Source of the DNA: Stieleria neptunia
GTDB taxonomy: Bacteria; Planctomycetota; Planctomycetia; Pirellulales; Pirellulaceae
Reading direction: 5' to 3'
Length of the DNA stretch: 64,000 nucleotides
NCBI RefSeq assembly: GCF_007754155.1
Contig: NZ_CP037423.1
Coordinates: 3,224,001-3,288,000, forward strand
Below, in pieces: positions 17,156 through 56,530 of the stretch (position 1 is its first letter; each line of letters begins with the position of its first letter). The position numbers and the translations under genes are program-made. The notes under the pieces were generated by a model. The model did not search any database. It was not told the DNA's origin and was given only the letters and a program-made list of their open reading frames with translations.

Positions 17156-17228
17156 GCGTTGGCCTGTTGCCGTTGACCGTTTAGTATGAACGAAGAAAAG
17201 GTCGTGTAACCGTTGAGATGTTTGGGAG

Positions 17229-25151: not shown

Positions 25152-25457
25152 GGCGTGCCTGATGGTAGCGATCGGCTCACCGACCAGTCAAGCAATAATT
25201 GCGAAACTTTGGTGTGGCGATTCGCTTCCCTGCCGCTCGCTGGCGCACGGAAAGAGAATCGAATTCGCCGTTTAGCCAACCACACCTGTGTCCCACAATC
25301 CATCGCGAAACGTATTCTTCGAAAAATCTTCGTGAAGTTTGCTCGTCGACGGCCGATCCAATACACTGCACGCCGAGTAGGGCTCGTTCTGGATTGCCGC
25401 TTTAGACCGTGTTGATGTTTGCCCCCAATGTACAACTCCAATTGAGCACGTCTGGAA
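25152..25457 (+). promoter_or_regulatory. Divergent intergenic region before gspE
   Basis: About 300 bp without a credible gene between the antisense GT39-like gene and gspE. It must hold the promoters for both if each is transcribed separately. I could not pick out convincing -35/-10 pairs or operators. Confidence 0.3.
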
Positions 25458-26888: not shown

Positions 26889-26889
26889 C

Positions 26890-28107
26890 ATGGCCACCTA
26901 TGCATATCGCGCGAGTGACAAACAGGGCAATCGCAAACGTGGTACGATCAGCGCGGCGAGCGGACGCCATGCTCGACAGCAACTGCGCACGCAAGGTCTG
27001 ACCATTGAATCCGTCAAGGAACGGCAGTCGACAACGCCAAGCCCCGTCTCTCAGTATGCCCGCAATCGCTCCACGCGGTACCGGTCTCAGCTAACGATTG
27101 CGGTGCGTGAACTCGCGACTCTGCTTCAGGCAGGAGTTCCTTTGCTCGACGCTCTTGATTCAATCCTCACGCAATCACGAGGCGGCTTTCGTGACGCAAT
27201 GCTATCGGTTCGGGATAAAGTTGCGAGCGGAGAAAGCCTCGGCAACGCAATGGCCAGCGAACGCCACATCTTCGACGAAATGATCATTGGCATGATTGGC
27301 GTAGGGGAGCACGTTGGAAATCTTGACGAAGTCTGTGAGCAGGTTGCGGAATTCCGGGAACGATCCAACGAGCTCAAGGATCGAGTTGTCTCTGCAATGC
27401 TGTACCCCGCAATTATTTTTGCGGTATCGATCGCGGTCACCGTTTTCCTGATGACCGCTGTTGTCCCTATGCTGCTTCAGAATCTTGTTGAAATCGGTCG
27501 GCCATTACCTACTCCGACACTGGTCCTGAAGTGGCTAAGCGATACGCTCCTGGATCACGGCATTTGGGTTTGTAGCGCAACAGCCCTGCTAGCTGCCAGT
27601 CTGCTTGGGTATTCGATGACGGCAAAAGGACGCAGGAAATTGGATGAGATTATTCTTTCAACCCCCGTTCTCGGGACCTTGGTTCAAAAACAGGCATTAA
27701 GTCGAATCGCCATCGTCATTAGTACGCTTTTGAGGAGCGGAGTCGAACTGGTGGATGCCTTGGAAATTGCGGAGCGATCATCGACAAACGGTCTTTTGAA
27801 GTCTGCACTTGCTGAAATGCAGTTTGATTTGAGGAACGGAAAGAATCTGCTGGAAGCGACTGAGCGGCACCGTATAATCTCACGCGCGATGTGTCAGGTC
27901 TTCTTACTTGGCCAACAGAGTGGCCAGTTGGATACAATGCTTTCCAGGTTGGGGCGCGACTACAGTCGTCAGGCTGAACTGCTAGCAAATCGCCTCACCA
28001 CGATCGTTGAGCCAGTCCTGCTACTGTTTCTTTCAGTGGTGGTCGGGTTCATTCTCTTCGCGACAGTTCTTCCCATTATGGAGGCCGGAAATGTATTGGC
28101 GGGATAG
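26890..28107 (+). CDS. gspF: Type II secretion inner-membrane protein GspF
   Basis: A 405-residue integral membrane protein with the family layout: an N-terminal segment YAYRASDKQGNRKRGTISA, two homologous GspF/PilC cytoplasmic domains (about 70-190 and 270-390) and three membrane segments near 170-195, 220-245 and 375-400. Motifs LATLLQAGVPLLDAL and STLLRSGVELVDALEIA are the paired family signatures. It is the core of the assembly platform that GspE drives. It overlaps the start of gspG by 17 bp. Confidence 0.93.
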   Translation: MATYAYRASDKQGNRKRGTISAASGRHARQQLRTQGLTIESVKERQSTTPSPVSQYARNRSTRYRSQLTIAVRELATLLQAGVPLLDALDSILTQSRGGFRDAMLSVRDKVASGESLGNAMASERHIFDEMIIGMIGVGEHVGNLDEVCEQVAEFRERSNELKDRVVSAMLYPAIIFAVSIAVTVFLMTAVVPMLLQNLVEIGRPLPTPTLVLKWLSDTLLDHGIWVCSATALLAASLLGYSMTAKGRRKLDEIILSTPVLGTLVQKQALSRIAIVISTLLRSGVELVDALEIAERSSTNGLLKSALAEMQFDLRNGKNLLEATERHRIISRAMCQVFLLGQQSGQLDTMLSRLGRDYSRQAELLANRLTTIVEPVLLLFLSVVVGFILFATVLPIMEAGNVLAG

Positions 28108-28573
28108 GCGGAGTTTTGAGCAACGTAATGCAGCTTATGTCTCGTCGAAGGCGTTTCCCAAAAAGGGCTTTACGTTGGTTGAATTGATGGTTGTAATCGT
28201 GATTATTGGCTTGCTGTCGGGGGTTGTCACGATCAGTGTTCGCAGCTATCTCATTCGTAGCAAGCAAAACATTGCGAGGCTTGAGATCAGCAAAATTTCC
28301 CAAGGACTAGAAACGTTCTACACAACGTACGACCGCTATCCGAGTAGTCAAGAAGGACTTGCGGTGCTGGCTCAATCAAGTGACGACTTCGTTGACGGCA
28401 TCATTCCATTTGTACCATTGGATCCGTGGGACAACCCCTATGAATATGTAAGCCCAGGAAGATCGAGTGCATACGAAGTCACGTGCTATGGCGCTGACAA
28501 CCGGGAGGGTGGGAGTGGTGCCGACAAAGACATCACCAGCAGCGAATTGCAGCAACGAGGGCAGCAACGTTAG
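28091..28573 (+). CDS. gspG: Major pseudopilin GspG
   Basis: A 160-residue major pseudopilin from ATG 28091, inside the gspF 3' end. The leader ends at KKG and is followed by FTLVELMVVIVIIGLLSGVV with Phe+1 and Glu+5. The soluble domain shows family marks: TYDRYPSSQEGLAVL, PLDPWDNPYEYVSPG and the C-terminal calcium-binding loop YGADNREGGSGADKDI. It forms the pseudopilus shaft. It is the last secretion gene; no gspN, gspO (prepilin peptidase) or gspS is in the window. Confidence 0.93.
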   Translation: MYWRDRRSFEQRNAAYVSSKAFPKKGFTLVELMVVIVIIGLLSGVVTISVRSYLIRSKQNIARLEISKISQGLETFYTTYDRYPSSQEGLAVLAQSSDDFVDGIIPFVPLDPWDNPYEYVSPGRSSAYEVTCYGADNREGGSGADKDITSSELQQRGQQR

Positions 28574-29045
28574 ATACAGGTAGCGTCGCAAGAATTTCAT
28601 GACTGGATTATGAGATTTAGTGCCTGACGTCAGTAGCAGTGATGCGAATTCCTTGTCGTGAAGACCGGATTAGCGTTTCGCATTGACGATGCCAACGGCA
28701 CGCTGCCGGCTGTCTCGAATTGATTGATGTGGATTCAATGATCCGTAGCCACAATTACCGGGCCACTGGAGATTACTCACCTTCACCTACTCGCTGCCAC
28801 AATTGTTGCGGTATTGACCGGGCGGAGGTGGGTGTTGCCCGGCAAGTGTTAGTACGATTATTCGGCATTCGGCTTGCTGTTGCCAACAGTGACCCCAAGA
28901 CATCGATTGACTGTCCAGGAAACAATCGAAATTCAGTACCCTTTTCCGTACCCTTTATCGATCGAAACCGGTGGGAAACAGAGGGATGCGTGGAAACGAA
29001 AACTGCTTTTTCCCCCGTAAAAACTGTGTTTCTCGACTTGTCTGG
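28574..29045. other. Intergenic stretch before island end
   Basis: About 470 bp between gspG and the tRNA-derived repeat. A 193-codon frame runs across it and through the tRNA fragment, but its product has no recognisable domain and I take it as chance. I see no terminator with a T-run after gspG. Confidence 0.4.
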
Positions 29046-29092
29046 CTGCATTCACACGGCAGAGGTCACTGGTTCGAATCCAGTATCGCCCA
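29046..29092 (+). tRNA. 3' half of a tRNA (probably tRNA-Val, CAC), left end of island
   Basis: The 47 nt read as anticodon arm, variable loop, T arm and acceptor 3' strand. The anticodon stem is CTGCA/GGCAG around loop TTCACAC, which in standard numbering gives anticodon CAC. The variable loop is AGGTC, the T arm ACTGG-TTCGAAT-CCAGT, then ATCGCCC and discriminator A; CCA is not encoded. The expected 5' half (a GGGCGAT acceptor strand and D arm about 70 bp upstream) is absent, so this is a fragment, not a working gene. Confidence 0.7.
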
Positions 29093-29094
29093 CT
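29069..29094 (+). repeat. att-like direct repeat, left copy
   Basis: 26 bp (from CTGGTTCGAATCC to GCCCACT) identical to 40095-40120. It covers the T arm and acceptor 3' strand of the tRNA fragment, the usual crossover site of tRNA-targeting tyrosine integrases. An integrase fragment begins 138 bp to the right. Confidence 0.8.
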
Positions 29095-29231
29095 TCTAGT
29101 ACTCGAGTTTGGACTCGTTTTTTACCGGCCGGAACGACTGGTGGTCGTTTCCCGCAATACGCGGCGCGGCCCGTTTTCAAGTTCGTTTGTAGTAACCCGT
29201 ACTACAAACGGTTTTTGAAGAGGGCCTTTCC

Positions 29232-29941
29232 ATGCCACGCAAACCCAGCCCGATGCCGGGGTACAAGTTCCACACCTCCGGCCAAGCCCGCGTCTTTTTG
29301 AACCGCAAGGCGTACTACCTCGGCGAGTACGACTCACCGGAGTCATATGCCCGGTACCACAACCTGCTGGCGATCTACAACGCCAACGGGCAGAAGATGC
29401 CGGATGACGTTCCGACGCACCAGATCGACTTGCCACTGACGATCGGGTGCCTCACTGCCGAGTTTCGCGAAAACCTCAAGAGTCGATACGCAAATAACAA
29501 GCACGAGCGCAGACGATTCTCCAATCTCAGCACGCTGCTTGAAGACGAGTACGGCGACCTCCCGCTCGATGCGTTCGGACCGATCAAGCTGGCGGACGTT
29601 CGTGACCTGTTCGTTGCTTCAGGCAACTGCCGCAACTACGTCAATCAGCAAACTCGCAACATCGTCCGGATCTTCAAATTCGGTGTGTCACGCGAACTCG
29701 TCACGGCAGAGCAACTCAAAGCGTTGGAATCTCTGGAGTCGCTGCGGCGAGGGCAAACCACCGCGAAGGAGTCGGTACTGCGCAGTCCAGTGAATCTTGA
29801 CGACGTCCGATCGACCGCCGCCCACCTCAGCCCGACGCTGAAGGCGATGGTGCGTGTGCAGGCGGCAACTGGAATGCGATCGACAGAGGTCTGCATCATG
29901 CGTCCAGTCGACCTGACGCAGGAGGCCGACGGTAACCTTGT
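29232..29941 (+). pseudogene. Tyrosine integrase, truncated before catalytic core
   Basis: The first ~237 residues match planctomycete phage-type integrases: an N-terminal arm with GYKFHTSGQARVFLNRKAYYLG, a SAM-like core-binding domain (about 75-165) and the beginning of the catalytic domain with its first Arg (VQAATGMRSTEVCIMRP). Homology stops at about QEADGN; the frame then runs to 30119 through antisense DNA of a ThiF-like fragment. The Lys, His-X-X-Arg and Tyr nucleophile are lost, so the protein cannot recombine DNA. It reads away from the left tRNA repeat, as island integrases usually do. Confidence 0.85.
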
Positions 29942-29942
29942 A

Positions 29943-30332
29943 CGATTCCTCCGCTTCGGGTTGATTCATGTACTCGTAGTAGCCCGCTCGAAAGTCAGCC
30001 GCCCATCCCCCTTCCGATGGATCAAACAGCGTTTTGCTGTAATTGGAATCCCTTGCGGGATGGTCGTTGGCCAGCCCGCGGATCACTTCGCCGCGCATTC
30101 GGCCGTCGATCCAAACTGAGCAGCGAGCCTGTATGGAACGCCAAATGGCAGACCGTGCTTTGATGGAGTCGACGCAGGCAAATACAGCTTCACCGGTCTT
30201 GAAATGCGGCCGATATCGGTCCGCGATCACACTGACTTCGATCTCGGGATCGATTGCCTTCACGTCAACCGCCGTGGCCTCGACCTTCGCGTGACCAATT
30301 TTGTTTCGTTTCAACCAACGGAGAAAACCCAT
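29943..30332 (-). pseudogene. ThiF/E1-like adenylyltransferase fragment
   Basis: On the minus strand about 125 codons resemble the middle of E1-like ThiF/MoeB/HesA proteins: IGHAKVEATAVDVKAIDPEI is the helix and strand after the nucleotide site, and AVFACVDSIKARSAIW matches the 'D(N)-x-R' part of the substrate pocket, followed by VWIDGRMRGEVIRGL. The N-terminal glycine-rich loop and the catalytic Cys region are missing. It meets the integrase fragment head-on at about 29942 and the IS66 gene at about 30331, so it is a leftover of a larger gene. Confidence 0.6.
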
Positions 30333-30666
30333 GTCCAAATCCGAGAATGCCGAAATCTGGGCCGAGCGTTTGCGGCGTTTCGAACTGGCTGACACCACCG
30401 TCGCTGCGTTCTGTGCCGCCGAAGGCGTTTCCCAGCCGGCCTACTACTACTGGCGACGCAAACTGCGGCGGTCGGTGATCAAGGCTGAACTGAAGGCAGC
30501 GAGTCCGCCCGCTACATTCTTGCCCGTCGCTTTCCCTGGCCAAGCTGAGCAGCTTGACGCCCCACGTCGGGCATTGACCACCATCGACCTGCCCGGTGGG
30601 ATTCGCATCCGGGTCGAAGTGCCGACGATGCCCCAATCCGAACAACGACCGGAGGATCGCTCATGA
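30331..30666 (+). mobile_element. tnpA: IS66-family TnpA-like accessory protein
   Basis: A 111-residue product (121 codons counting an upstream extension) like the first ORF of IS66 elements: a helix-turn-helix part (IWAERLRRFELADTTVAAFCAAEGVSQPAYYYWRRKL), a linker, and a short C-terminal strand region ending with IDLPGGIRIRVEVP. In IS66 this protein helps the TnpC transposase. It overlaps the degraded tnpB by ATGA. No tnpC and no terminal inverted repeats are visible, so the element is a remnant. Confidence 0.85.
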
Positions 30667-30836
30667 CCGGACTGCCCCCAGCCACGCCGGTTTAACTCTG
30701 CACCGATCCAGTCGATTTTCGAAAAGGTTTCGATGGACTGACCGGCATCGTCACCACTTCGCTGGGAAGAAACGTCACCGACGGATCGCTGTTCCTGTTC
30801 GTCATCCGAAAGCGGGATCGCAAGCTGGAAGCTTAA
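30663..30836 (+). pseudogene. tnpB: IS66-family TnpB remnant
   Basis: Starts by ATGA overlap with tnpA. Translation reads TGLPPATPV, a TAA stop, then LCTDPVDFRKGFDGLTGIV and LFLFVIRKRDRKLEA before a second stop. This is the N-terminal half of IS66 TnpB (normally about 115 residues, with V-Y/W-L at the place of the stop). The nonsense codon and missing second half show it is dead. Confidence 0.8.
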
Positions 30837-30849
30837 GCCACTTTGTAAG

Positions 30850-30873
30850 ACCGCCATTCATTCTTTTGGCGGT
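30850..30873. terminator. Weak hairpin between kinase gene and IS remnant
   Basis: A 7-bp inverted repeat ACCGCCA/TGGCGGT with a 10-nt loop lies just behind the stop of the kinase gene (minus strand). No T-run follows on either strand, so a terminator function is only possible. Confidence 0.3.
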
Positions 30874-30875
30874 GC

Positions 30876-33800
30876 CTAATGCGTCTCAATCGCCGATCCA
30901 TCGGCGTTCACCCACCTTGCACCGCGAATGGTTCCGTGGTGGTGGTTGCCGGAGGAGTCAAACAGGACGTTGCCAGTGCCTTCATCAAAATGATACAGGG
31001 CCCGCGTGTGCTCGTCGTTTTCGAAGCGATCGACCGGCGTGTAGTTCTCGGTGTAGCGTGCGATGTTGGAGATGCGGACTTCGTCGATGATGCCATAGAA
31101 GTGGGATTTCCCAATGCATGCGTCGCGGCCCGGCGCGAGCAACTGCACCGATTCTGCCAAGAGTTTGTCTGATTCTTCCGTGGTGTTCTTCTTGTATTGT
31201 TTTCTTTTTCCATGTGTCGCACTTACCTGATTCTTTACCCTTACGCCATTTACGAATAGCGAAAGGGTCTTTTGGTCGTAAACGGCCGCAAGCTTTACAG
31301 TCTCTGTTGAAGTTCGAGCCGCATGAACAACGATGTCACGATCCTCAGAGATCATGCCTTCCGCCGCCCATTTTCCATGGCTCTTGACAGTCAACCACAG
31401 AAGTCCAGCATGTACAGGCCATGACATCGTTGCGTTCTGAGGCAGGGAAGATAAGGACAGTGTGGCCTCAATGGTGACTGGTTGGGATTTATGTATTGTT
31501 GCGGACGAAATATCCACGCAACTCGATTGCGCATCAAACTCCAAAGCGTAGTTGCCGTTTCCTGGTTTCGCGGCGTTTGCGCCGGAACGTGCATTGGCTA
31601 GCGGTGGCGAGTTGATCTGAGCTTCCGCTTCGCGGCGCGTGATTCGATTGTCGCGCACATCACCAGGGGAATTTGTGATCGGGCCTTCATCAACCGCTTG
31701 GATAGCGTTTCGTCTTAACGCGTCAACGATTTCTTCCGCCGGTCGGGCATCCCAGACACGATTGAGTGAGCCACTCCAACCACTCGCCGAGAGCCAGTGA
31801 TCACGGCAATCAAACTCGAGCTTCGAAACGCGGTGTTCTGATTCCAATCGCAACAAATGCTCCGCCGATGGCCACTCCCACAGATTCACCTCACAATCGG
31901 TCCCGCCCGTTACCAGCCGTGTTCCATCGTGACTAAAGGCCAACGCACTCATGCTTCCCCAGTGCCGGTCGAGACGCTTGACTCGCTCGCCCGACTCAAG
32001 ATCGAAAATATCGATTCGTCGCCGATAGCCAACAAGTAAGTGCTTCTCGTCAGGGCTAAATCCCGCGGCCCCGTTTGGTGCAAATTGGGTAGGGATTGAT
32101 TGAATGATCGTCCCCATCAGCGGATCGAAAACCGTGATCTGTCCATCAAATACCGCTGCCGCCAATCGAGATCGGGGGGCGGTAGCAATACACCGACGCA
32201 TCGGTCTGCGGAGTTTCTCAGGCAACTTAATTGCGTTGCCCGTATCGGTCTCAAGCACAACCAACTCCCCGTCTTTGCGGATAAAAATCAGGTGATCGCT
32301 ATCGGCAGTAAAAAATGGTCCTGGTTGAGCCATCCCGTCGACAAAAAGCACCGGGGCACCAAACCCTGTCACTCGTTCTCCGATGCTCCAATCCCAAACA
32401 GAACCTCCCTCGGTGCCTGCTGCAAGAAGCTGTCTACCATCGGGCGAGAAACGGATCACTTGTACTGGATGATTGACCGCGAATGGCACATGAAATGTGG
32501 AACGTCGTGAACCGAGCTCTTGAATCTTGATTTCCCCATTTTCGTGGACTGCGATCAAAGACTCCGTTGGGTGATAAGTGACGCGTTCCTCCGAGAACCG
32601 TGATCGGGGGACCGGTCGTGGCCAACGGATAAGTGTTTCATCGCACATGCTGATCAGCGACCCATCATGCAATTCATCAATTGCTCTGAGTCTGGAATGA
32701 TGCCCGATTAGAGAATGTTCCAGCTCGCGTGTTTGGTGATTCCATATCTTGAGCACATTGTCAGTCCCCCCCGAAACTGCTAGCTGTCCTCCGTTGAGAA
32801 ACTTGGCTGCGTAGATACCGTCGGTTCCGCGATGCTTACCAATGTGCACTACCGATTTACTGTTGAATGACACCCGTCTAACGCTTGCGTTTATCTGACC
32901 AAGTAAAAGCTGCTTGCCGTCCGTCGAAATATCGATCGCGTGTGACCCGCCTGTGCGTGCGATCTTGCGTTGTTTCGGCTCAACAGCCTCCTCCTGACGG
33001 TCTTTCGTGTCCCAGCGAATGATGTCCCCACTGGAGCTGCAAGTGACCAAATTCTCGCTGTCGGGAGTGAATGCGGCACATAGGACTTGAGGGCTATTTG
33101 GACTGGTTCCCGACAAATCGCCGTTGGCAGTCCAACTGGAATCCAGGTCCGGCCATGAGAAAACCTGGACATTAGTTTGGCCATTTCCTACCACCGCCAA
33201 CTGCTTTCCGTCGGGGCTAAACACAACGTCAGCCATCCATCTACTGAATAGATCTGCTGAACGAGTGAAGACTGACGCCTGTTCCCGAACAATCTTTCCG
33301 TCGGGTGCGACAACGTGCAGCTTTGATGTCTTGTCCGATACCACCAAGTCATTTTGCAAGGGGTGGCCGCAAACCCGTCTTGCTCTGGGCAATTTGATAT
33401 GCCGGATCTGCTCACCGTCTTGAAGACTTCGGATTGAAATTCCGCCGTCTACCGCGAGTGCGACGTGGTTTCCGTCCGCCATGACTGTCATGTCATAGGC
33501 GCCAACGGTGACCTTCCAATCGTATTGTGCAAACAGATTGCGGGTCAGCCGCCACTCAAGGCCTCGCTTTTCCTCAGGGCATTCGTCTAACAACTGGATT
33601 CCCGTCCCCGAATGGCCTTCTCGCCATTGCGACAACGCCAGTGACACATTGCGGCGATAGGTGGTTGCTTCGGATTGCTCCCGAGCTTGCTCAGAATCTT
33701 GTTTCGCCCTTACAGCCTGTGCTGTTGCAGTTTCTGCGACCGCTTGTGACTGCCGTGCATCATCTCGTGCCGCTTCCGCTTGATCTCGTGCGACTTCTGC

Positions 33801-35378
33801 CTGATCTCTTGCGACGCGGGACGTCACTTCTCGCTGTCGGGCCAGATCGAGTGCGTCGGTCGTGCGGATGTAGGCGAAGGTGGAGACCACTGAGATCGCG
33901 AGGAGCAGCGCGGTGCACGCCGCGCCGAGCCCGGCGATCACCGGATTGCGACGGCCCCAACGGTTGAATCGCTCCGGCAACGACATGCGTCGCGCGTGAA
34001 TCGGCTCGTCGCTCAGATACCGCTCCAAGTCAGCCGCCATCTCCTCGGCATCTTGGTATCGATCCTTCGAGTCCGCCGCCACCGATTTGTGGATGATCGT
34101 TTCCAAGTCACGCGGGATATGACGATCGATGGATTGCAAGCGTGTCACGTCGGCATGGCTGATTCGCTGCAACAACCCGCGTCGATCGTTTTCCTCGTAA
34201 GCCGGTCGTTGGGCGACCAGCTCATAGAGCGTCAAGCCCAACGAGAAGATGTCACTACGCGCATCCGCGACGCCCTTGAGCGCTTCCGGTGGCATGTAGC
34301 GCAGGGTTCCGAGCACGTCGCCGGTCTTCGTGAGGTCGTCTTCCTCTTCCGCCTTGGCCAAGCCGAAGTCGGTGATCCAGACGGTACCGGCCAGGTCCAG
34401 TAGCAAGTTGCCCGGTTTGATGTCTCGGTGGATCACGCCTTGGCTGTGCGCGTAACCCAACGCCTCGGCGGCTTGCTGGCCGATCCGTGCCACGCTTTGC
34501 CAATAGGTTTGCTTGGACGCGAGTTGGGAGATGCCGGATTCGGCCGCCGAGAGGATGCCAGACCCGGAACGGTGGATAGAAGACGTGCCGGAGGCAGGAT
34601 CCTCTTGCTTGCGCTGCGAGCTGGTATTGCGGGAGGCGGGCTTTTGGCTACCGGAATCGATTGTCTGGTCAAGCAGCTCGCTGCTACCGGAGTCTACATC
34701 GCTGATCTCCGGCGTTTGAAACTGACCGTTGAAAAGGGAATGGGCGAGATTCGCAGCGGTCACCTCTTCGTTGCCCCAACCCGATGGCTCGACATCCTCT
34801 CCTTCCACCCTTCCTGCGACTTCCGCTTGGCGCTGAACCGCTGAGAGTACATCGTTGAGCGGCATGCCGGAGATAAATTGCATCGCGTAGTAACTGATCC
34901 CGTCGGCTTCGCCGACACCGAACACGGGAACGATGTTGGTGTGGTGCAAACGCGCCGCGGCGCGAGCTTCACGCTTGAACCGACGTCGCTGTTTGCTGTC
35001 GGCCATCAATCGTTGCGGCAGGATCTTCAGCGCGACGTGACGACCCAGCGATTCCTGTTCGGCTTCGTAGACCACCCCCATCCCGCCGCGACCGATTTCG
35101 CGTACGATCCGGTAATCGCCCAGTTGCTGCGGATGTGAGGGGGCGAGTGCAGCGGTGCTAGCGTCCGCATCAAGGGTGTGATCGGGAGGAGAATCGTCGC
35201 TCTCCGGCGCGGCCTGCTCCATCGCCAATAGCGTGGGAAACAGATCCAGGATCTCCTCGGCATGCTCGGGATACTGCTCGGCGTATTCCTGGACCGTAGG
35301 ACGCTCGCCGATACGGCAACGCCTGGTAAACTCTTCGACGATCTCATCCAGATCAGGCGATGGCAATGATTCGTTCAT
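30876..35378 (-). CDS. Ser/Thr protein kinase with WD40 and LamG-like domains
   Basis: A 1500-residue PknB-type kinase. Residues 1-55 are the short helical 'EEFTRRCRIGERPTVQEYAEQYPEHAEEIL' segment usual in planctomycete kinases. The kinase domain (88-455) has GRGGMG, Lys118, HRD (317-319) and DFG (337-339), so it should be active. A Ser-rich insert of about 100 residues (185-292) sits between the hinge and the catalytic loop. A transmembrane helix follows (ITALL-type segment GLGAACTALLLAISVVSTFA, about 486-505), then a coiled coil of DQAEVAR-like repeats, WD40 repeats (about 620-1220) and a LamG/concanavalin-like domain (about 1290-1490). It follows an ECF sigma gene on the same strand, 209 bp away, a common planctomycete pairing. 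Confidence 0.92.
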   Translation of the reverse strand: MNESLPSPDLDEIVEEFTRRCRIGERPTVQEYAEQYPEHAEEILDLFPTLLAMEQAAPESDDSPPDHTLDADASTAALAPSHPQQLGDYRIVREIGRGGMGVVYEAEQESLGRHVALKILPQRLMADSKQRRRFKREARAAARLHHTNIVPVFGVGEADGISYYAMQFISGMPLNDVLSAVQRQAEVAGRVEGEDVEPSGWGNEEVTAANLAHSLFNGQFQTPEISDVDSGSSELLDQTIDSGSQKPASRNTSSQRKQEDPASGTSSIHRSGSGILSAAESGISQLASKQTYWQSVARIGQQAAEALGYAHSQGVIHRDIKPGNLLLDLAGTVWITDFGLAKAEEEDDLTKTGDVLGTLRYMPPEALKGVADARSDIFSLGLTLYELVAQRPAYEENDRRGLLQRISHADVTRLQSIDRHIPRDLETIIHKSVAADSKDRYQDAEEMAADLERYLSDEPIHARRMSLPERFNRWGRRNPVIAGLGAACTALLLAISVVSTFAYIRTTDALDLARQREVTSRVARDQAEVARDQAEAARDDARQSQAVAETATAQAVRAKQDSEQAREQSEATTYRRNVSLALSQWREGHSGTGIQLLDECPEEKRGLEWRLTRNLFAQYDWKVTVGAYDMTVMADGNHVALAVDGGISIRSLQDGEQIRHIKLPRARRVCGHPLQNDLVVSDKTSKLHVVAPDGKIVREQASVFTRSADLFSRWMADVVFSPDGKQLAVVGNGQTNVQVFSWPDLDSSWTANGDLSGTSPNSPQVLCAAFTPDSENLVTCSSSGDIIRWDTKDRQEEAVEPKQRKIARTGGSHAIDISTDGKQLLLGQINASVRRVSFNSKSVVHIGKHRGTDGIYAAKFLNGGQLAVSGGTDNVLKIWNHQTRELEHSLIGHHSRLRAIDELHDGSLISMCDETLIRWPRPVPRSRFSEERVTYHPTESLIAVHENGEIKIQELGSRRSTFHVPFAVNHPVQVIRFSPDGRQLLAAGTEGGSVWDWSIGERVTGFGAPVLFVDGMAQPGPFFTADSDHLIFIRKDGELVVLETDTGNAIKLPEKLRRPMRRCIATAPRSRLAAAVFDGQITVFDPLMGTIIQSIPTQFAPNGAAGFSPDEKHLLVGYRRRIDIFDLESGERVKRLDRHWGSMSALAFSHDGTRLVTGGTDCEVNLWEWPSAEHLLRLESEHRVSKLEFDCRDHWLSASGWSGSLNRVWDARPAEEIVDALRRNAIQAVDEGPITNSPGDVRDNRITRREAEAQINSPPLANARSGANAAKPGNGNYALEFDAQSSCVDISSATIHKSQPVTIEATLSLSSLPQNATMSWPVHAGLLWLTVKSHGKWAAEGMISEDRDIVVHAARTSTETVKLAAVYDQKTLSLFVNGVRVKNQVSATHGKRKQYKKNTTEESDKLLAESVQLLAPGRDACIGKSHFYGIIDEVRISNIARYTENYTPVDRFENDEHTRALYHFDEGTGNVLFDSSGNHHHGTIRGARWVNADGSAIETH

Positions 35379-35461
35379 TGGTTCTCCAAAATTTTAATAA
35401 ATACGAGCCCGACGCGCAAGCCAAATGTTGATTTAGTTTTTGCGAAGTAAATTTTCAAATC

Positions 35462-35519
35462 ATAACCCGAAGCGCGAGCGAGGGACGGACTTCCATCCCT
35501 TGCTCACGCTTCGGGTTAT
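35462..35519. repeat. REP-like palindrome between kinase and sigma genes
   Basis: Arms of 24 nt (35462-35485 and 35496-35519) around a 10-nt loop match at 22 positions; the core reads AACCCGAAGCG. The bases after it (TCAATCAACAGCCCG) recur in the repeat at 56632-56650. The 209-bp gap between the sigma and kinase genes contains this and nothing else I can name. Confidence 0.7.
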
Positions 35520-35587
35520 TCAATCAACAGCCCGCTTGTGCTTCGAGCTTGTATTTTCACGGCACGCAACGCTTTTGTCCAACATCG

Positions 35588-36220
35588 TTACTCCATGAAC
35601 CCCGGTATCTCCGAGAGTGTTTCCTTCATTCGTTTGAGCGCTCTTAGGTAACGTGTGCTTGCGGTCGACTTATCGATTTCCAGGACTTCGGCCACTTCCG
35701 AATTAGTCAGTTGTTCGAAATGCCGCAGCGCTAGCACTTCACGGTCGACATCGGACAGGCTATTGAGCGCTTCTTGGACACGTAGTTGGGTCTCGGCCCG
35801 CACGGCAGCTCGCGACGGCGAAGTCATTCCGCCCAGCAGTTGGATCGCCAGCGAGGCCGACGTCGCCATTGGCATGCTGCCGCGATAGAGCGAGATTTCC
35901 ATCCCTGCATCCCGCTTTTGTGCCCCCAGATGCCGGCGATGGGCATCGATCAGTTTTTGACCGGTGATGTGTCGCAGCCAAAGATAGAACGGCATCTCCG
36001 GCGACTTGGCGTAGTCGGCAATCCGTTTGCTGGCTTCGATGAATGCCTCCTGGACGATGTCGGCCGGATCGACACGCCGCTGGATGTTGCGGTTCAGCCG
36101 CATCTTGACCATTCGCCGGAGACGCGTTTCGTGGGGCGACAACAAATCGGCTAACGCGGAATCGTCACCTTCTGCCGCGCGGCGAAGCAAATCGTCCGAA
36201 ATTTCGCTGGGATCGGTCAT
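35588..36220 (-). CDS. ECF-type RNA polymerase sigma factor
   Basis: A 210-residue sigma-70 family factor. Region 2 includes ADIVQEAFIEASKRI and LWLRHITGQKLIDAHRRHLG; region 4 includes LSDVDREVLALRHFEQLTNSEVAEVLEIDKSTASTRYLRALKRM, a helix-turn-helix for -35 recognition. I chose ATG 36220 (preceded by AAGAAAG); the frame is open to 36337, which overlaps the hsdR remnant. It resembles the planctomycete ECF group encoded beside Ser/Thr kinases, and it precedes such a kinase here. The kinase probably controls it, by inference. Confidence 0.9.
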   Translation of the reverse strand: MTDPSEISDDLLRRAAEGDDSALADLLSPHETRLRRMVKMRLNRNIQRRVDPADIVQEAFIEASKRIADYAKSPEMPFYLWLRHITGQKLIDAHRRHLGAQKRDAGMEISLYRGSMPMATSASLAIQLLGGMTSPSRAAVRAETQLRVQEALNSLSDVDREVLALRHFEQLTNSEVAEVLEIDKSTASTRYLRALKRMKETLSEIPGFME

Positions 36221-36387
36221 TGAACTTTCTTGCATGTCATTGCTAATCGCGGTCTTTCCGACGCAAGCTCCGATATTCTCGCAGATTCGGAAAAGATCGA
36301 CCACATTCTCGGGGAGCAGACGCGCGACGTTCGGCAACGTCCGTCATCTCCTCAAGCAACTCTTGCTCGCGGGCAAAAAGCCGCTTC

Positions 36388-37717
36388 GCCGATGCACAAA
36401 CGACCGTCGACAAGGCCTACAGCCAGTTGCAAACGTACAAGGCCGAGTTCCCGACCCTTGTTCGGGTACAACGAACTGCTTGTCGCCAGCGACGGCTCAG
36501 GAGCCCGTATGGGCTCGCTGACGGCCGGACGCGAGTGGTTCAAGCCGTGGAGGGCGATCGACTCGGAAAAGCCCGTGAAGGGCCTGAGCGAGTTGGAAGT
36601 GCTGATCCGCGGTGCGTTCGACCCGGAGAGACTGGTCCGGCTGATCCAAAACTTCATTGTGTTCGAAGAAGACCCGGATAGCGGCACGGTCCACAAGATC
36701 CTGGCCGGGTACACCGAGTCCGGCGGGCAGGGTGAAACGACCATCGACACCGCCCAAGCCGTCGCTGCCCTGCAGAAGCAATACGAAATCTGCTGTGACA
36801 TGCTTCACGGGTTCGATTGGTCAGCGTGGCACGGCGGAAAGCCGACTGACATGGTGTCAGTGCCCGTTGCCGCGCAAGACTACGTTCTCGATCAGGAGGA
36901 CGGCAAACAGCGGTGGCTGGCCAGTGTGAGTTCGTTGTCAAAGGCGTTCGCGCTTTGCCCCACCGAACCCTACGCCCACGAGATTCGCGACGACGTCGCG
37001 TTCTTCCAGACCGTCGCTGCGATGATGCGGAAGTATCAGGAGAATGGCAAGTCGCAAAGCGAACTCGACTACGCCGTGCGTCAGCTGGTCGGCAAGGCGG
37101 TCGTCACGACGGGGGACCGGCCGATCGACGTGTGCAGCGCGGCTGGCATGGAGAAGCCCGACATCTCGATTCTGTCGGACGATTTTTTGGAGGAAGTTCG
37201 GCGGTTGCCGCACAAGAACGTGGCCGTCGAACTGCTCAAGAAACTGCTGAGCGACGAGATCAAAACGCGGTCGCCCCGCAACGTCGTCCAGGCCCGAGCG
37301 TTTTCGGACATGCTCAAGCGGACGTTGAACGCTTACCACAACCGGGCGATCACGACCCAGGAGATCATTGAGGAGATGATCAAGCTGGGCAAGGAACTCC
37401 GTGCCGCCGGGGCCCGTGGAGCGGATCTGGGGCTCAACGACGACGAATTGGCGTTCCACGACGCCCTGGCCGAGAACGAGTCCGCATTCGAGCTTCTCGG
37501 CGACGACAAGCTGAAAGTGATCGCGACCGAACTGATCGTCGCGGTTCGGAAGAACGTCACGATCGACTGGGCGCTACGCGAATCGGCCCGAGCACGAATC
37601 CGAGTCATCATCCGCCGGATCCTGCGAAAGCACGGTTATCCGCCGGATCTGCAAGCGGCGGCGACCAAGTTGGTGCTGGAGCAGGCGGAAGCGATTTGTG
37701 GAGGGATGCTCGGGTGA
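36388..37717 (+). pseudogene. hsdR: Type I restriction enzyme HsdR remnant, motor deleted
   Basis: Three parts of HsdR are joined. First, ADAQTTVDKAYSQLQTYKAE (from the end of the nuclease domain), broken by a one-base insertion at about 36460. Second, in the shifted frame, FGYNELLVASDGSGARMGSL to HKILAGY. Third, from TESGGQGETTIDTAQAV, the C-terminal helical domain through to VRKNVTIDWALRESARARIRVIIRRILRKHGYPPD. The whole Superfamily 2 helicase motor (normally some 450 residues between AGY and TESGG) and the N-terminal nuclease are missing. No hsdM or hsdS is in the window. A frame starting at 36230 could still give a 495-residue protein, but with no nuclease or ATPase. Confidence 0.85.
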
Positions 37718-37890
37718 CGCGGTGTCACCTCTCAATCGGGAATCTGGCGTCGACAGGACTCCTTCGGGCATGAGAAATTCGTGATTCAAGGCTTCGATTG
37801 CATGAACCCGGTCAGCGATCCAGCCGGATCGCTTCTAGGCTGCATCCCAATTTCCTTGTTGATCCGCGATCCGAAAACACGTGAAGGGCG

Positions 37891-38301
37891 TCAGTACGCG
37901 ACCCCGGTGTATTCCTCAAATTCGCGTCTCGTCATTTGCCCATTGCGTACTGCTGCTCTCGCTCCCCTCATAACCAACTCCCTTGCGTCCTGAAGGTGCT
38001 TTTCTCGACTGTGGGACGGTGTTCCCAACGCAGTACGGGGAGCTGATGAGACGGATCGCGTTGTGAACGCCGGGCGTGTCGCTGGTTCTTTCGCCTCATC
38101 TTTACCGCCACCAAAGATCGCGACGATAAACACGAACAGGAGGAACGCCCCAAGCACAGCGCCACCGATAAACCTGCAATCGTCGGCTTCCTTTTTCTGC
38201 GTCTCGATCATCTCGGCCGTCAGTGCAACACCGCACTTTGGACACGATTCCGCAAATTCACTTAGGTTGTTGCTGCACTCAGGACACGCGATTATCGGCA
38301 T
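37891..38301 (-). CDS. Zinc-ribbon membrane protein
   Basis: A 136-residue protein from ATG 38301 (an upstream ATG at 38352 would add 17 residues). Residues 5-25 form a zinc ribbon (CPECSNNL...SCPKCG), residues about 45-65 a transmembrane helix (GGAVLGAFLLFVFIVAIFGG), and the C-terminus a helical domain with a short SHOCT-like pattern (LVMRGARAAVRNGQMTRREFEEYTG). Such small zinc-ribbon membrane proteins are of unknown function. It lies antisense between the two hsdR remnants, inside the island. Confidence 0.75.
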   Translation of the reverse strand: MPIIACPECSNNLSEFAESCPKCGVALTAEMIETQKKEADDCRFIGGAVLGAFLLFVFIVAIFGGGKDEAKEPATRPAFTTRSVSSAPRTALGTPSHSREKHLQDARELVMRGARAAVRNGQMTRREFEEYTGVAY

Positions 38302-38430
38302 TGCTTCACCTTTCAAATGTCTGGGGGGGTAGTTGCTACCAACTTTCGTCATGAGCTAGCAGATGCAAACACCAGCAGGAGGATTTCCATTGGCCTCACG
38401 TGTTTCGGTTGCATGCGGCTATTTCTTCGT

Positions 38431-38716
38431 TACAACCCGGCGATCATGCCCCTGGATATGATCAAGCTGGGCAACGAACTACGTGCCGCGGTGTCCCGAT
38501 GGATGGGGAGCGGTCTCTTTTCAATTTCCCCCGTGACAATCAACGATGCGGTAGCCGACGGAGTGTCTGAGTTCGAGCTTCTAGGTGACGACAAGCTGAA
38601 CGTGATCGCGACCGAACTGTTCGCCACGGTCCGGAAGAACGCGACGATCGACTAAGCCCTACGAGAATCGGCCCGAACTCGAATCCGAGTTATCATCCGC
38701 CGGATCCTGCGAGACT
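38431..38716 (+). pseudogene. Second, more decayed HsdR C-terminal fragment (part 1)
   Basis: This repeats the end of the first hsdR remnant at lower identity: MIKLGNELRAAV, a scrambled stretch, then FELLGDDKLNVIATELFATVRKNATID, a TAA where Trp stood, and ALRESARTRIRVIIRRILR. Homology stops at about 38715 and resumes at about 39337. It is a diverged second copy, not a recent duplication, since many codons differ. Confidence 0.75.
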
Positions 38717-39073
38717 AGAGCCACTCGCTGGTTCGACTGACTGAGCCATAAAGATTGCTCAATAGCCAAGTCGCCGAACAGGGCTGTTATTGGTGGCGGC
38801 CTGTGAACAAAACACGAAGGCGATTCTAAATGCTGCGTTTTGCAGAAGCACCTGGTCGCGAATCACCGCACTTTGGAACATATAACGACGCCCTAGTACC
38901 TAGCGGGAAAATCAATCGGGAAAACGGCACAATTTGAGGTGACATTGGGGCACCTCACACTTCATTTTTTGCAGTGGCTGTAGAGGAACTGTCCCAGGTT
39001 GCTTAGAAAGTGACCACAATAAGTGCTCGACGATCCGGATCGATCGCTTTGACGTGAACCTGGGAGATGAAAG
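38717..39073. other. Non-coding part of DNA inserted in second hsdR copy
   Basis: About 360 bp with no credible gene. It begins where the hsdR homology breaks off and leads into a small membrane ORF. I could not see terminal inverted repeats or a target-site duplication. Confidence 0.4.
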
Positions 39074-39325
39074 ATGCCGAATCGACCTGAAAGAAAGTCA
39101 TCTACCACCGAACTTAAGTCTCTACGTCTCGCCGACGCAGTCGTTGGGTACGTGGGGATCTTTATCGTGCTTGCCGTGCTTTGGGTTTTCAGGCCATTTG
39201 TAGTTGCAGAATTACCGGTAAGCGAAGAAGTGAGAATACAAGCGGCTGTTGATCGGGCCGTATTGAAGGATCGCTTTTACAGCGCATACGGCGACTACGT
39301 TGCCGGAGTACCTGTTTCCAGGTAG
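39074..39325 (+). CDS. Small single-pass membrane protein
   Basis: An 83-residue product with a basic N-terminus (MPNRPERKSS), one transmembrane helix (about 26-44, VVGYVGIFIVLAVLWVF) and a short acidic then helical tail. GGGAGATGAAAG precedes the ATG, a fair ribosome binding site. No family recognised. It occupies the end of the ~620-bp stretch that splits the second hsdR tail. Confidence 0.45.
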   Translation: MPNRPERKSSTTELKSLRLADAVVGYVGIFIVLAVLWVFRPFVVAELPVSEEVRIQAAVDRAVLKDRFYSAYGDYVAGVPVSR

Positions 39326-39336
39326 TTGCACGCCCG

Positions 39337-39408
39337 ACCTGGATCCCCGCCGCGTCGAAACGGGTTCTGAAACAGGCCAAGGCGATTTGTGACAGATCGG
39401 TGGGGTGA
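39337..39408 (+). pseudogene. Second HsdR C-terminal fragment (part 2)
   Basis: The frame P-T-W-I-P-A-A-S-K-R-V-L-K-Q-A-K-A-I-C ending in VG-stop matches the last 24 residues of the first remnant (PDLQAAATKLVLEQAEAIC...LG-stop). The DNA after the stop also keeps a GTGAC...GTCA palindrome seen behind the first copy. It is the continuation of the fragment ending at 38716. Confidence 0.6.
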
Positions 39409-40094
39409 CATCGCGTCAGTTCCCGACTCGGGGCCACTAAATTCGATGCCCTCAAGTCCATCAGGTACGCCGTCATACCACCTGACGCGTTTCCGCGAAC
39501 CGGCTGGGGGCGGCTAATTCGAACCTCGGTTCCCTGTCCAAAGAAAACGTCATGCCGCACGGCACAACTGCGGAAGGAAACGTGTTTTCTACGTTTGGAG
39601 GTGGCCGGCTGGACCGCCTGGGTCATTCCAGCCGTTTCCTGTTCCATCGGAGACGGGAGATAACCAAGTACCTGCAAAACCGAAACGCCGATTCGCGGGT
39701 CAAACAATTCTGGCGAATGGGGCCCCCTGTGTCGGTGCCGCTGACATCACGTCAGTTGGAGAGAGTGAATCAGCAAAAATCTGTTCTTGTCGCTCGTGCA
39801 TTGGTCCGCCGTCACCAACTGCCACCGATATGCCCCGCGGTGTTACCGCTGAGACTTCTGCGCAGGCTTGCCGCGTTTGGCGTCTCCCGATCGCCCTTCC
39901 GTGTCGTGTGACTTCCACCGGGCCAGGATTGACTCAGCGAACGCTTGCACCCGCCGCAACTGTGAGTGCTCCATCTGCTCCAGCAGCTTCACCACCGACT
40001 CGATCGAAGCGTTTTGGTCCGCAAATTGGTCCGCAGCTTCCAGATCGCTCTCCGAATCTCGGTTTCGCCCCGTGTTTTGCGGCGTTTCCGCGAG
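39409..40094. other. Right-end stretch of island without clear gene
   Basis: About 690 bp. The best frame is on the minus strand (39843-40169), whose first part is antisense tRNA sequence reading WAILDSNQ and whose remainder includes a helix-like stretch (ASIESVVKLLEQMEHSQLRRVQAFAESILARW). That could be the C-terminal end of a broken gene. Nothing else is recognisable. Confidence 0.35.
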
Positions 40095-40120
40095 CTGGTT
40101 CGAATCCAGTATCGCCCACT
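40095..40120 (+). repeat. att-like direct repeat, right copy
   Basis: 26 bp identical to 29069-29094, in the same orientation, covering the tRNA T arm and acceptor 3' strand. Here the anticodon arm is missing as well. Together the copies delimit an 11.05-kb segment. Confidence 0.8.
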
Positions 40121-40198
40121 CTCTTTTCGGGCATTCTGCTCGCGGTGGGGCGATGGGGTGGGGGCGCACTTGGCAGGGCGAATGATTGCTCTATTTTC

Positions 40199-40340
40199 TT
40201 GTCACCCATTTTCCTGTCTGTTCCGATGCTGCCCCTGTGCGACAGTGGTTGGGGCGGAAACGTGTGGGGGTTGGCAGAAAAATCGGTGGCAGAAAAATGG
40301 GAGTGGCGGAGGGACGGGGCGACAGGAAAATGGGTGACAA
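40199..40340. repeat. Dispersed repeat family R1, inverted pair
   Basis: A perfect 20-nt inverted repeat, TTGTCACCCATTTTCCTGTC at 40199-40218 against 40321-40340. The right half also has GGCAGAAAAATCG and GGCAGAAAAATGGGAG upstream, the full R1 module that recurs at 44938, 46416, 53338 and (partly) 54470. It lies just outside the right island repeat and behind the haloperoxidase gene. Confidence 0.75.
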
Positions 40341-40370: not shown

Positions 40371-42893
40371 TTAGGGCGAACCGATCGAACCGTCGATGTA
40401 CTGTTGAGCCCGCTGCCAGACGGCCATGGCGACGTCATCGCCGAGTTTCCGCCCCCGTAGATCGCCGTCGTCAAAATGGATGCCGCCGTAGATGCGAGAG
40501 AGCCCCGCTTCATCGGCCGCTTCGCGGAAGGTAGGCCACTGCAACGTCACCTCGGTCGCGGGGACGTCACCGGGTTCAAACCGCGACTCTCCGGCACCAA
40601 ACGTGACTTCCCCGCCGAACTGTGTTGCCCCCGAGAAGAGTTCCAAAATCGTCGCACCGGCAGCGCTAAAGCTGCTGTGTCCCGACGTGAACTCGGCAAA
40701 CGGGGGCGAGGGATCACTGCCGGGCGTTTGATACGTCAAGAACTGGATCGCCGGGATCGTTTGCGTCGCGCCCGTCTCCGGCGTCCAAACATCGATCATG
40801 TATTTCCCCGATGCCTGATCAAGTTCGCCGATCAACCCCAGTTCACCTAGTTCTCGGATGACGCGGACCGGGCGGGCGTAATCATAGAACACTTTGGCAT
40901 CCCAGGTGGCGATGCTGGCATCGAAGACGGCATTGGACAGCGCAAAGAAAAGCTGAGCGTCCTGATCCAGCGTGTGTTCGTCGCGTCCGGAGAGGAATTG
41001 CCCAAACGTCATCCACGTGCCCGGTGGGAAGGAGGTGTGCCCGGCGTCTTCCCAGAACTCGGCGATCAGTTTTTGTTGATCGGTCAAATCGGCACTGGCG
41101 TCGATGACGCGTTGAGCTTGGGCGATGAAGTCGGGGTTGATCACCGTTCCGATCAACGATCGATCGATGGGGAGCACCGTTTGATCGGCCAGCGTGATGG
41201 TTTGGGTGATCAGATCCACCGTGCCGTCTACCAGCAAGAACGGTTCTGGCGGTTCGGGGCGAAACTGGGACGCCGTGGTCAAACTGAAGGGCGTGACATC
41301 GCGCCAGTGGGGCGTCAAGAAGGTCTGCTCGCGATCAGCAGTCGCGGCCGTGGCGTTGATCGGCACGTACTCCGGTGTCCAGGCATCGATCACGACGTTT
41401 TGGCCGACGCCGTTGACGGACGCATACGCCGTCAGGTTGGAATACTTGACGCCGCTGATGCCGTCGGGGCTGTTCCCGAGTTGGTTGGAACCATCGGCGT
41501 GTCGCATTTCCAAGAGCTTTGCGGCCATCACATTCCCGATCCCCGCCGGCGTGGTCACGTCGGTCGAATCGTCATCGCGATCGTAGCCCAATTCGGCCAT
41601 CAAGCCGTCAAAGATCTGATCGGCTTCGGGGAACAAGTCCGACAGCACTCGATAGGCCGCATAGCTCATCGCTCGGGCCTTGTTCGCATCGGTGTTTTCA
41701 TGGGCCGGCCGCTGCAACAGGTCCTGGTGGTTGGTCGAAACCGCATCGGCGTCGTAGGCGGACCAGGCGTCAAACATGGCGGTGTGGACCATGGCGTAGG
41801 CGCGCGCGGCCACCGTGGGCCCAGGAGAGGTGGCGACGACGCCTCTTTGTGCCGCGACGTCCCAACGCACCGAGAGGGTCGGGTCGGGTGTCGAGACGGT
41901 CACGAATTGCGATTGGGGATTCAGATTCAATTCAGCGGTTTGCCGTACCAGCATCGGAAATTGATCCGTCGTGATTTCGTTGCCAGCCAGATCGCAAAGC
42001 CGCGGTGGCAGCGTGATGCGGTATTCTCCATCGTCGAGTTTGTCGGCAAATTCGAGCGTCAATCGATGCGTCGGGTCCTGTGTGATCGTCTGGATCGGAA
42101 TCTCTTGAAGGACGTTGCCGCTGGCGGTTACTTCGACCGCAAAACTACTTTCGGCGATGGCTTCCTGGGCCAGCGGTTCGTCGAACAGAAACTCGACGCG
42201 CCGCTGTCGCAATCGCATTCGGCCGTCTTCGGCGTCGAGCACCGGGGCGGGGACGGTGCGATCGACCGTGAGCGTGAAATCGATCGACGCGTTTCTGCCA
42301 GGGATTGAAATCGCGATCTGGTGGTCGCCGTCTTCCAGGCGACCGGAGGCCAGTCCGTCGATGACGCTGTCGGAGAGCACCAGACGGTCGTCGACTTCGA
42401 AGTCGGCCAGATTGTCGAACGTGGTTCCGTCGATCGTCAGCTCGATCTCATCCAGGAAGTCCGAGGCCCAGATTTCGATTCCCGGCGCGTTGGTCAACAG
42501 ATCGTAATTGGCGTTGCCGGCGAATCCGGAATCGTGGATCAACCGAGACGCGATCGCGGGGTCATCGTCGTTCAATTCGTTGAACACCAACAAGACGTCA
42601 TGCGGCGTGACCAGCCCGTTTCCGGTCACGTCGGGGAAAAAGCCGGCACCGAGCTGGGGCGTCGATTCGTTGCGGAGCAAGTCGATCACGGCCAGTGCAT
42701 CGAGTATTGAAACCTGCAAGTCCAAGTTGACGTCACGCGGCTGGTAGGGACTTTGTAGGTCTGCGGCGAGTAGCATCCGCTTGCACAGAAGTTCCAGTCG
42801 TCCCCGCCGTCGGTAGGGTCGTCGTTTTGTGTGACCGTCTCTCATCTGCTTCAACATCGATTGCGCCTTCGAATCGTCGCGCTGCAAAATCAC
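40371..42893 (-). CDS. Vanadium-dependent haloperoxidase/PAP2-like secreted protein with dockerin
   Basis: An 840-residue protein. A basic leader with RLELLCKRMLLAADLQ resembles the planctomycete 'LE.R.LL.AD' N-terminus of secreted proteins. Residues about 50-115 form a dockerin type I-like pair (DVNLDLQVSILDALAVIDLL and DVTGNGLVTPHDVLLVFNEL). About 120-330 are beta-sandwich (Ig-like) domains. The C-terminal 500 residues are a vanadium haloperoxidase/acid phosphatase superfamily domain with FTSGHSSFSAAGA (phosphate/vanadate and catalytic His) and YGGIHFDDGDLRGRKLGDDVA. Halide oxidation or a phosphatase role cannot be told apart. Start could also be the ATG at 42857. Confidence 0.85.
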   Translation of the reverse strand: MILQRDDSKAQSMLKQMRDGHTKRRPYRRRGRLELLCKRMLLAADLQSPYQPRDVNLDLQVSILDALAVIDLLRNESTPQLGAGFFPDVTGNGLVTPHDVLLVFNELNDDDPAIASRLIHDSGFAGNANYDLLTNAPGIEIWASDFLDEIELTIDGTTFDNLADFEVDDRLVLSDSVIDGLASGRLEDGDHQIAISIPGRNASIDFTLTVDRTVPAPVLDAEDGRMRLRQRRVEFLFDEPLAQEAIAESSFAVEVTASGNVLQEIPIQTITQDPTHRLTLEFADKLDDGEYRITLPPRLCDLAGNEITTDQFPMLVRQTAELNLNPQSQFVTVSTPDPTLSVRWDVAAQRGVVATSPGPTVAARAYAMVHTAMFDAWSAYDADAVSTNHQDLLQRPAHENTDANKARAMSYAAYRVLSDLFPEADQIFDGLMAELGYDRDDDSTDVTTPAGIGNVMAAKLLEMRHADGSNQLGNSPDGISGVKYSNLTAYASVNGVGQNVVIDAWTPEYVPINATAATADREQTFLTPHWRDVTPFSLTTASQFRPEPPEPFLLVDGTVDLITQTITLADQTVLPIDRSLIGTVINPDFIAQAQRVIDASADLTDQQKLIAEFWEDAGHTSFPPGTWMTFGQFLSGRDEHTLDQDAQLFFALSNAVFDASIATWDAKVFYDYARPVRVIRELGELGLIGELDQASGKYMIDVWTPETGATQTIPAIQFLTYQTPGSDPSPPFAEFTSGHSSFSAAGATILELFSGATQFGGEVTFGAGESRFEPGDVPATEVTLQWPTFREAADEAGLSRIYGGIHFDDGDLRGRKLGDDVAMAVWQRAQQYIDGSIGSP

Positions 42894-52571: not shown

Positions 52572-52611
52572 CGGCGATCCTTAAGTCGTTTGGACGCAGC
52601 CAGTTACACCA

Positions 52612-53247: not shown

Positions 53248-53337
53248 GGCGTCGAATCCGTGAAGAGAAGCGTCATTGCCGGTGTAGAAAACGGCAGCGT
53301 CCATCCTAGCAGGATTGACGGGGAAAGGGGCGGTCGC

Positions 53338-53420
53338 GGGAGATGGCAGAAAGATCGAGGGGCAGAAAAATGGGAGCGGCGGAGAGAAGGGGCGACAGGA
53401 AAATGGGCGACAAGAAAATA
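53338..53420 (+). repeat. Dispersed repeat family R1, copy
   Basis: Reads GGGAGATGGCAGAAAGATCG, GGGGCAGAAAAATGGGAGCG and GGGGCGACAGGAAAATGGGC with GACAAGAAAATA: the best match to the R1 consensus. It lies between the sigma factor gene and the secreted protein gene. Confidence 0.7.
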
Positions 53421-56474: not shown

Positions 56475-56530
56475 GCTGAAGAGAGAAACAAGCGGGAGAG
56501 GCGGCCACGCTCGCCGCTGCCAGCGGGACG

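Follow-up and report, generated by a model that had tools for sequence, protein, structure and literature searches.

A tRNA-Val(CAC) gene of Stieleria neptunia that probably received two mobile elements in tandem

Introduction

How did a segment of about 11 kb in the chromosome of the planctomycete Stieleria neptunia come to be bounded by two copies of the same tRNA end? The segment occupies positions 29069-40120 of the 64,000-nucleotide stretch analysed here (contig NZ_CP037423.1, positions 3,224,001 to 3,288,000 of the forward strand; hereafter the window), and the original prediction, made from the sequence alone, read it as a decayed tRNA-targeted island that had lost its integrase. We propose that the locus holds two mobile elements with different integrase families, inserted head to tail in one tRNA-Val(CAC) gene, and that the inner of the two, the 11-kb segment, most likely arrived first; to this reading we assign a probability of roughly three in four.

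Integration by tRNA-targeting integrases is established to restore the tRNA gene and to displace its old 3' end. The Islander survey, in the part of it considered here, locates crossovers in the anticodon loop, in the T loop or where the T and acceptor stems meet; among its 3919 islands it counts 125 tandems of at least two (PMC4383910).

The source genome (G000; 10,975,817 bases, contig C1) was compared with 13 congeners (14 genomes in total), among which G002 is Stieleria sedimenti. The 11-kb segment is referred to as the inner element, with integrase int2 and right-hand tRNA fragment att3, and a 127-kb segment to its left (G000:C1:3126390-3253050) as the outer element, with integrase int1 and right-hand tRNA fragment att2.

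Results

Two tRNA fragments and their parent gene

The 26-bp repeat on which the original prediction was built is exact: the copies at 29069-29094 and 40095-40120 are identical and in direct orientation, and shuffled versions of the window hold no match to it, even with 3 mismatches. A genome-wide search with its 25-base core, allowing up to 2 mismatches and with the reversed sequence as control, returned three copies, all on the + strand (3126365; 3253069, which is window 29069; and 3264095, which is window 40095), and none for the reversed 25-mer. The copy at 3126365, which is not one of the repeat pair, ends an intact tRNA-Val(CAC) gene of 75 bases (G000:C1:3126315-3126389), located outside the window, 97 kb to its left and about 126.7 kb left of the left repeat copy. 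With three genome copies, one of them a tRNA end, and nothing found in its favour, the idea that the 26 bp are an unrelated dispersed repeat, against which the prediction itself had cautioned, can practically be dismissed. No copy with up to 4 substitutions was found in 440 kb of G000 besides the known three. ARAGORN called no tRNA at either repeat copy, and Rfam and ARAGORN gave 0 hits over the window.

The tRNA-derived sequence at the left copy extends beyond the repeat: att2 reaches back to the first base of the anticodon loop (the anticodon being tRNA positions 35-37), and att3 takes up the tRNA from the T arm on (Table 1). All fragments lie in the orientation of the tRNA (+). Displaced 3' fragments with two different crossover places are what would be expected from insertion by tyrosine integrases, and they point to crossovers at the anticodon loop for int1 and in the T arm for int2.

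As in a tandem array, each fragment is paired with an integrase gene of its own. An open 333-aa (amino acid) tyrosine integrase, int1, starts 74 bases past the tRNA end and goes with the 45-bp fragment; the int2 remnant goes with the 26-bp fragment. The latter bears out the tyrosine integrase piece predicted just inside the left repeat copy, since over 220 aa it shares 62% identity with the initial portion of a Phage_integrase protein of 399 aa from G002; it has no Pfam or NCBIfam match of its own. The remainder of the 399-aa protein is absent here, and the catalytic C-terminal part is lost with it. Compared one to one, int1 and int2 are barely similar (E 0.004).

Such a locus would be built in two steps. 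An element that carries the 3' part of the tRNA beside its integrase would, on integration, restore the tRNA and push the old 3' end to the far side. The inner element would have entered first, by int2 recombining in the T arm, so that its right end is the 26-bp fragment at 40095, and would then have decayed. The outer element, with int1 recombining at the anticodon loop, would have inserted between the tRNA and int2, restoring the tRNA at its left end and leaving the fragment from the anticodon loop onward (29051-29095) at its right end.

A single island of 11 kb, flanked left and right by chromosome, would also place the repeat and the integrase fragment exactly where the original prediction found them. 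It is nevertheless highly improbable, given an intact tRNA-Val 127 kb away with an integrase of its own and the absence of window positions 9061-29060 from the 13 congeners, where the matches listed fall in gspE-like sequence apart from three short matches that include the right end in G004. The left flank of the 11 kb is the right end of the 127-kb element, not chromosome. The prediction survives in that the roughly 11 kb are the remnant of a tRNA-targeted island, with tRNA-derived borders and a broken integrase; the left neighbour is a second island, and the loss of the integrase holds for the 11 kb and not for the array, which keeps an intact int1 beside the tRNA. The island border is moved by 127 kb.

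The integration site in related genomes

The tRNA-Val(CAC) gene is full-length in 12 of the 14 genomes (11 identical sequences, and 95% identity in G011); it is split at contig ends in G004, and G008 has only fragments of 45 and 24 bases. Its left flank is common to G001, G002, G005, G012 and G013, five of the 11 genomes compared. For the right flank, the sequence after 40120 was aligned with the post-tRNA sequence of 11 relatives, with 200 shuffles as reference. In G002 the site is empty: the tRNA is followed by the sequence that follows att3 in G000, with a score of 97 versus at most 30 in the shuffles. The original prediction had sought the empty site as a joint of 29050 and 40125, a candidate rejected here because 29050 lies inside the outer element; the true site joins the distant tRNA-Val to the sequence past 40120.

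The 11 kb is absent from the same site in the relatives, which is empty in G002 and has other contents elsewhere. No 11-kb unit occurs in the 13 congeners among the matches listed, best first, of which the longest is about 1 kb; conservation of 29.1-40.1 kb, named in the prediction as a sign against an island, is not seen. A third integrase family occupies the tRNA in G001 and G005. The flank that follows att3 stands in G005 on another contig, behind the junction TTCGGGGCCAGTATCGCCCA, and G001 has the same junction 97 kb further on. The third family also occurs in G010, in front of an int1 remnant. Among 78 predicted proteins encoded between the tRNA and the core in G000, six match the G001 region at E 1e-8 or better, one of them closely (75% identity).

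The inner element

Of the features of tRNA-targeted genomic islands, the 11 kb has tRNA-derived direct-repeat borders and, beside the tRNA-derived end, a truncated integrase gene. The contents are largely those originally predicted (Table 1). The IS66 remains comprise a 121-aa TnpA (NF047593, 53.4 bits versus a cut-off of 28), with no IS66 transposase among the open reading frames (ORFs); the restriction gene wreckage is an HsdR remnant with an internal gap relative to its relatives, its two parts lying 1.4 kb apart in a 1079-aa frame of G001, together with a second partial copy; and the kinase-sigma pair is indeed a serine/threonine kinase and an ECF sigma factor. At the right end a small ORF on the - strand (39843-40169) extends into the tRNA fragment, and its protein resembles one at the right end in G008:C481; the end of the inner element therefore seems to be coding.

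Table 1. Features of the window, with positions counted from its first nucleotide.
Feature	Position	Strand	Basis or remark
Outer element, right part, with RHS protein and type II secretion genes	1-29050	.	Right end common to G004:C38
att2, tRNA-Val 3' fragment, 45 bp	29051-29095	+	Exact match, tRNA positions 33-77; junction of both elements
int2 (tyrosine integrase), N-terminal 220 residues, truncated	29232-29891	+	62% identity to G002 integrase
ThiF-like fragment, weak	30096-30311	-	22.8 bits, under cut-off 28.1
IS66 remnant with TnpA	30299-30822 (TnpA 30301-30666)	+	NCBIfam match
Serine/threonine kinase, 1500 aa, WD40 repeats and LamG-like domain	30876-35378	-	Profile matches
ECF sigma factor, Planctomycetaceae-specific subfamily 1	35588-36337	-	TIGR02984
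HsdR remnant	36386-37698	+	Two parts: 36386-36712, 36709-37698
Small zinc-ribbon-like ORF	37891-38352	-	Weak Pfam matches under cut-off; part matched in G002:C48
Second partial HsdR copy	38454-38711	+	Profile match
Right end of inner element	39912-40118	+	Conserved in G008:C481 to end of tRNA part
att3, tRNA-Val 3' fragment, 26 bp	40095-40120	+	Exact match, tRNA positions 51-76, from T arm on
Flank directly behind intact tRNA-Val in G002 (empty site)	40121-40218	+	Alignment score
Gene with G001 ortholog	45088-46323	-	In G001 2.6 kb behind att site of another element in same tRNA
Conserved chromosome, syntenic in G002, G005, G012	47820-64000	.	Examined to 60000

Both ends of the inner element have relatives. 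In G009 the left end (94.3% identity over 849 bases) stands directly behind an intact tRNA-Val; because the core matches listed for a 20-kb block reach 68-77% there, except one of 78 bases at 86%, the int2 piece has moved between species. The right end is 81% identical over 207 bases to G008:C481:7134-7340, and the likeness stops where the tRNA part ends.

Within the genus the int2 family gave 26 matches, 16 of which were examined as loci. Twelve of the 16 have an intact tRNA (Val, Pro, Ala, Arg, Cys or Asp) a short way upstream, some 115-200 bases before the start of the gene (by extrapolation for partial matches), and a tRNA-Val fragment precedes the gene in the window and in G008:C199. Named int2-family loci stand behind a tRNA in four of four cases, two of these being S. 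sedimenti loci already counted as G002.

The outer element

Comparison with G004 supports both predicted ends of the outer element. In that genome, contig C148 opens on the 3' end of the tRNA, followed by int1 (91% aa identity, one internal stop codon), and has blocks in common with G000 3169892-3182640 and 3198255-3202694; contig C38 begins in the same tRNA fragment and continues with the right-end sequence of the outer element (72.8% over 136 bases).

The element encodes RadC, ParA, a TIR-WD40 protein, a TrwC relaxase, ArdC, a Toprim protein, a resolvase, a coupling protein, RepA of the RPA family and type I restriction genes. VirB4 (PF03135) has no match in the genome, other mating-pore families not having been searched genome-wide, and it is for this reason that we call the element mobilizable and not conjugative. 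It resembles integrative mobilizable elements in that integrase, relaxase and coupling protein are all present and VirB4 was not found by one profile; it differs in its size of 127 kb and in carrying RepA and ParA, as plasmids do. A coupling protein is not found in every integrative mobilizable element. Judged by its gene content, this appears to be a plasmid-like, putatively mobilizable element with an intact integrase.

By composition the outer element is the more foreign part of the array. Its GC content is 0.544, versus 0.592 and 0.603 for the flanking core, and its tetranucleotide distances are 0.202-0.361 in 11 pieces, eight of which exceed the maximum of 0.224 in 25 local core windows (mean 0.131, standard deviation 0.040). 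The base-composition check suggested in the original prediction does not single out the inner 11 kb (GC 0.568, distance 0.171, about one standard deviation above the core mean) and turns attention to its left neighbour.

Other genes of the outer element merit description. Type II secretion genes (secretin, GspE, GspF and GspG; window 20722-28573) are found as cargo of a mobilizable element; among them, the matches of any length listed in the congeners are confined to gspE, at 64-79%. An RHS-repeat protein of 2221 aa is encoded at 417-7079. Two ORFs, one of 976 aa with DnaG-like, Toprim and reverse-transcriptase domains (G000:C1:3148903-3151833) and one of 1465 aa matching PADLOC RT_UG29 and RTasDnaG-like (G000:C1:3154879-3159276), are perhaps one defence-associated reverse transcriptase (DRT) gene in two pieces. 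Left of the window lies a 4.4-kb direct duplication (G000:C1:3212152-3216573 and 3219114-3223534; 98.9% identical) with a gene for a tyrosine recombinase and one resembling a primase. A relative at 3205928-3212311 (about 90%) makes three, and 3220761-3225360 of this set extends into the start of the window.

Neighbouring chromosome

FGGY-kinase genes beside the tRNA in G002 and G012 were considered as the right flank and rejected, the G000 ortholog lying 700 kb away from the tRNA; a rearrangement therefore separates the lineages. At the breakpoint one match was found, to sequence recurring elsewhere, and no direction is drawn from it. The FGGY kinase gene of G000 (G000:C1:3828981-3830303), whose orthologs adjoin tRNA-Val in those two genomes, has an internal TAA. 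Right of att3, an 840-aa dockerin and vanadium-haloperoxidase-like protein is encoded at 40371-42893, with relatives (82-83%) at other places in G001 and G013. A short sequence around TTTTCTTGTCACCCATTTTC (window 40192-40218) recurs behind the tRNA and elsewhere in G002 and G012, and 58339-58834 is a repeat of at most 0.5 kb with more than 10 copies in G000 and more in other genomes.

Discussion

Order of arrival and present mobility

The same product would result from the reverse order, with the 127-kb element arriving before the other and leaving the 45-bp fragment, whose T arm the int2 element would later have entered. The fragment does still contain a T arm, and the int2-like gene of G008:C199 also stands behind a tRNA-Val fragment. 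On the other hand, int1 is an open frame, whereas int2 and the genes around it have decayed, and of the two elements the 11 kb has the more core-like composition. Both points suggest, without proving it, greater age for the inner element; in G009, moreover, int2 stands behind an intact tRNA. We consider the reverse order unlikely and arrival of the inner element first probable.

That the stretch from tRNA-Val to att3 is one composite unit of 138 kb, moving as a whole, appears very improbable. The last 26 bp of the tRNA are common to all three copies, which would suit such a unit, but att3 is without the anticodon-loop part, with which the int1 element terminates in both G000 and G004, and each of the two elements has relatives of its own. 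For the two-element arrangement, predictions of present mobility follow from the genes and ends. The inner element should not excise by itself, as int2 has no catalytic C-terminal part left and neither the restriction genes nor the IS66 genes are whole; with T-arm sequence still present at each end, the 11 kb might be moved in trans by a related integrase. int1 should excise the 127 kb only, because att3 lacks the anticodon-loop part.

Several observations weigh against two successive insertions in this order. The structure by itself does not fix the order of the two events. The flank test was positive in one of the 11 relatives, the other ten scoring 14-21, within the range of the shuffles, because they carry other things at the site; in G001, the flank behind its element does not match the att3 flank (score 19, shuffles up to 29). 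In G005, about 30 bases to the left of the junction are similar to the right end of the 11-kb segment, though the tRNA of that genome carries another integrase; element ends may therefore have been exchanged. Atypical composition, a usual but not necessary feature of islands, does not mark the 11 kb as foreign. Two of the 16 int2 loci are without a tRNA or fragment close upstream. Lastly, the int2 copy of G009 is also truncated and the int1 gene of G004 has an internal stop; an element both intact and complete was observed for neither kind.

One target, possibly several subsites

We tentatively extend the two-element reading to the genus, at somewhat less than even odds: one tRNA-Val may serve three integrase families, each with its own subsite: int1 at the anticodon loop, int2 in the T arm, and a third whose insertion leaves no more of the tRNA than CCAGTATCGCCCA. 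An element arriving at a subsite nearer the 5' end would leave behind a fragment with the other subsites still in it, so that arrays could grow in layers with inner elements left stranded. G000 (int1 and int2) and G010 (third family before an int1 remnant) show stacking, and perhaps so does G008, where an int2-like gene stands behind an anticodon-loop fragment on a contig too short to tell. Should the subsite reading be true, the tRNA-Val locus of the genus would be a natural test of exclusion versus stacking among integrases that share one target.

Comparison with known systems

The locus offers a clean case in which nested tRNA fragments separate two insertion events, and it brings to light a large plasmid-like, putatively mobilizable element in a planctomycete; among papers retrieved for planctomycetes together with conjugative elements, the titles and the available parts of the abstracts contained nothing on such elements in planctomycetes. 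As in the Islander tandems, both members come with a tRNA fragment and an integrase gene of their own, with anticodon-loop or T-arm crossovers; what differs here is a broken integrase in the inner member and the use of different subsites by the two. The part of the Islander table considered gives no count of tandems with mixed subsites (PMC4383910), nor did the portions consulted of the literature on tandem tRNA islands contain a count of mixed-subsite arrays.

The tandem accretion described for the asn tRNA genes of Klebsiella (PMC4891358, in the part considered) is alike in being a hotspot with several island types and composites whose integrases are not closely related; it concerns other bacteria and another tRNA, and its direct repeats are short tRNA 3' ends. 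In Streptomyces avermitilis, the available text on actinomycete integrative and conjugative elements (AICEs; PMC3218068) likewise describes one tRNA-Arg gene occupied by two elements whose integrases belong to different subfamilies, although these are actinomycete elements with another transfer mechanism. Tandem or layered islands in one tRNA are, then, an already familiar type of event, of which this locus is an unusually clear instance; less usual are three integrase families with three junction types on one tRNA within one genus.

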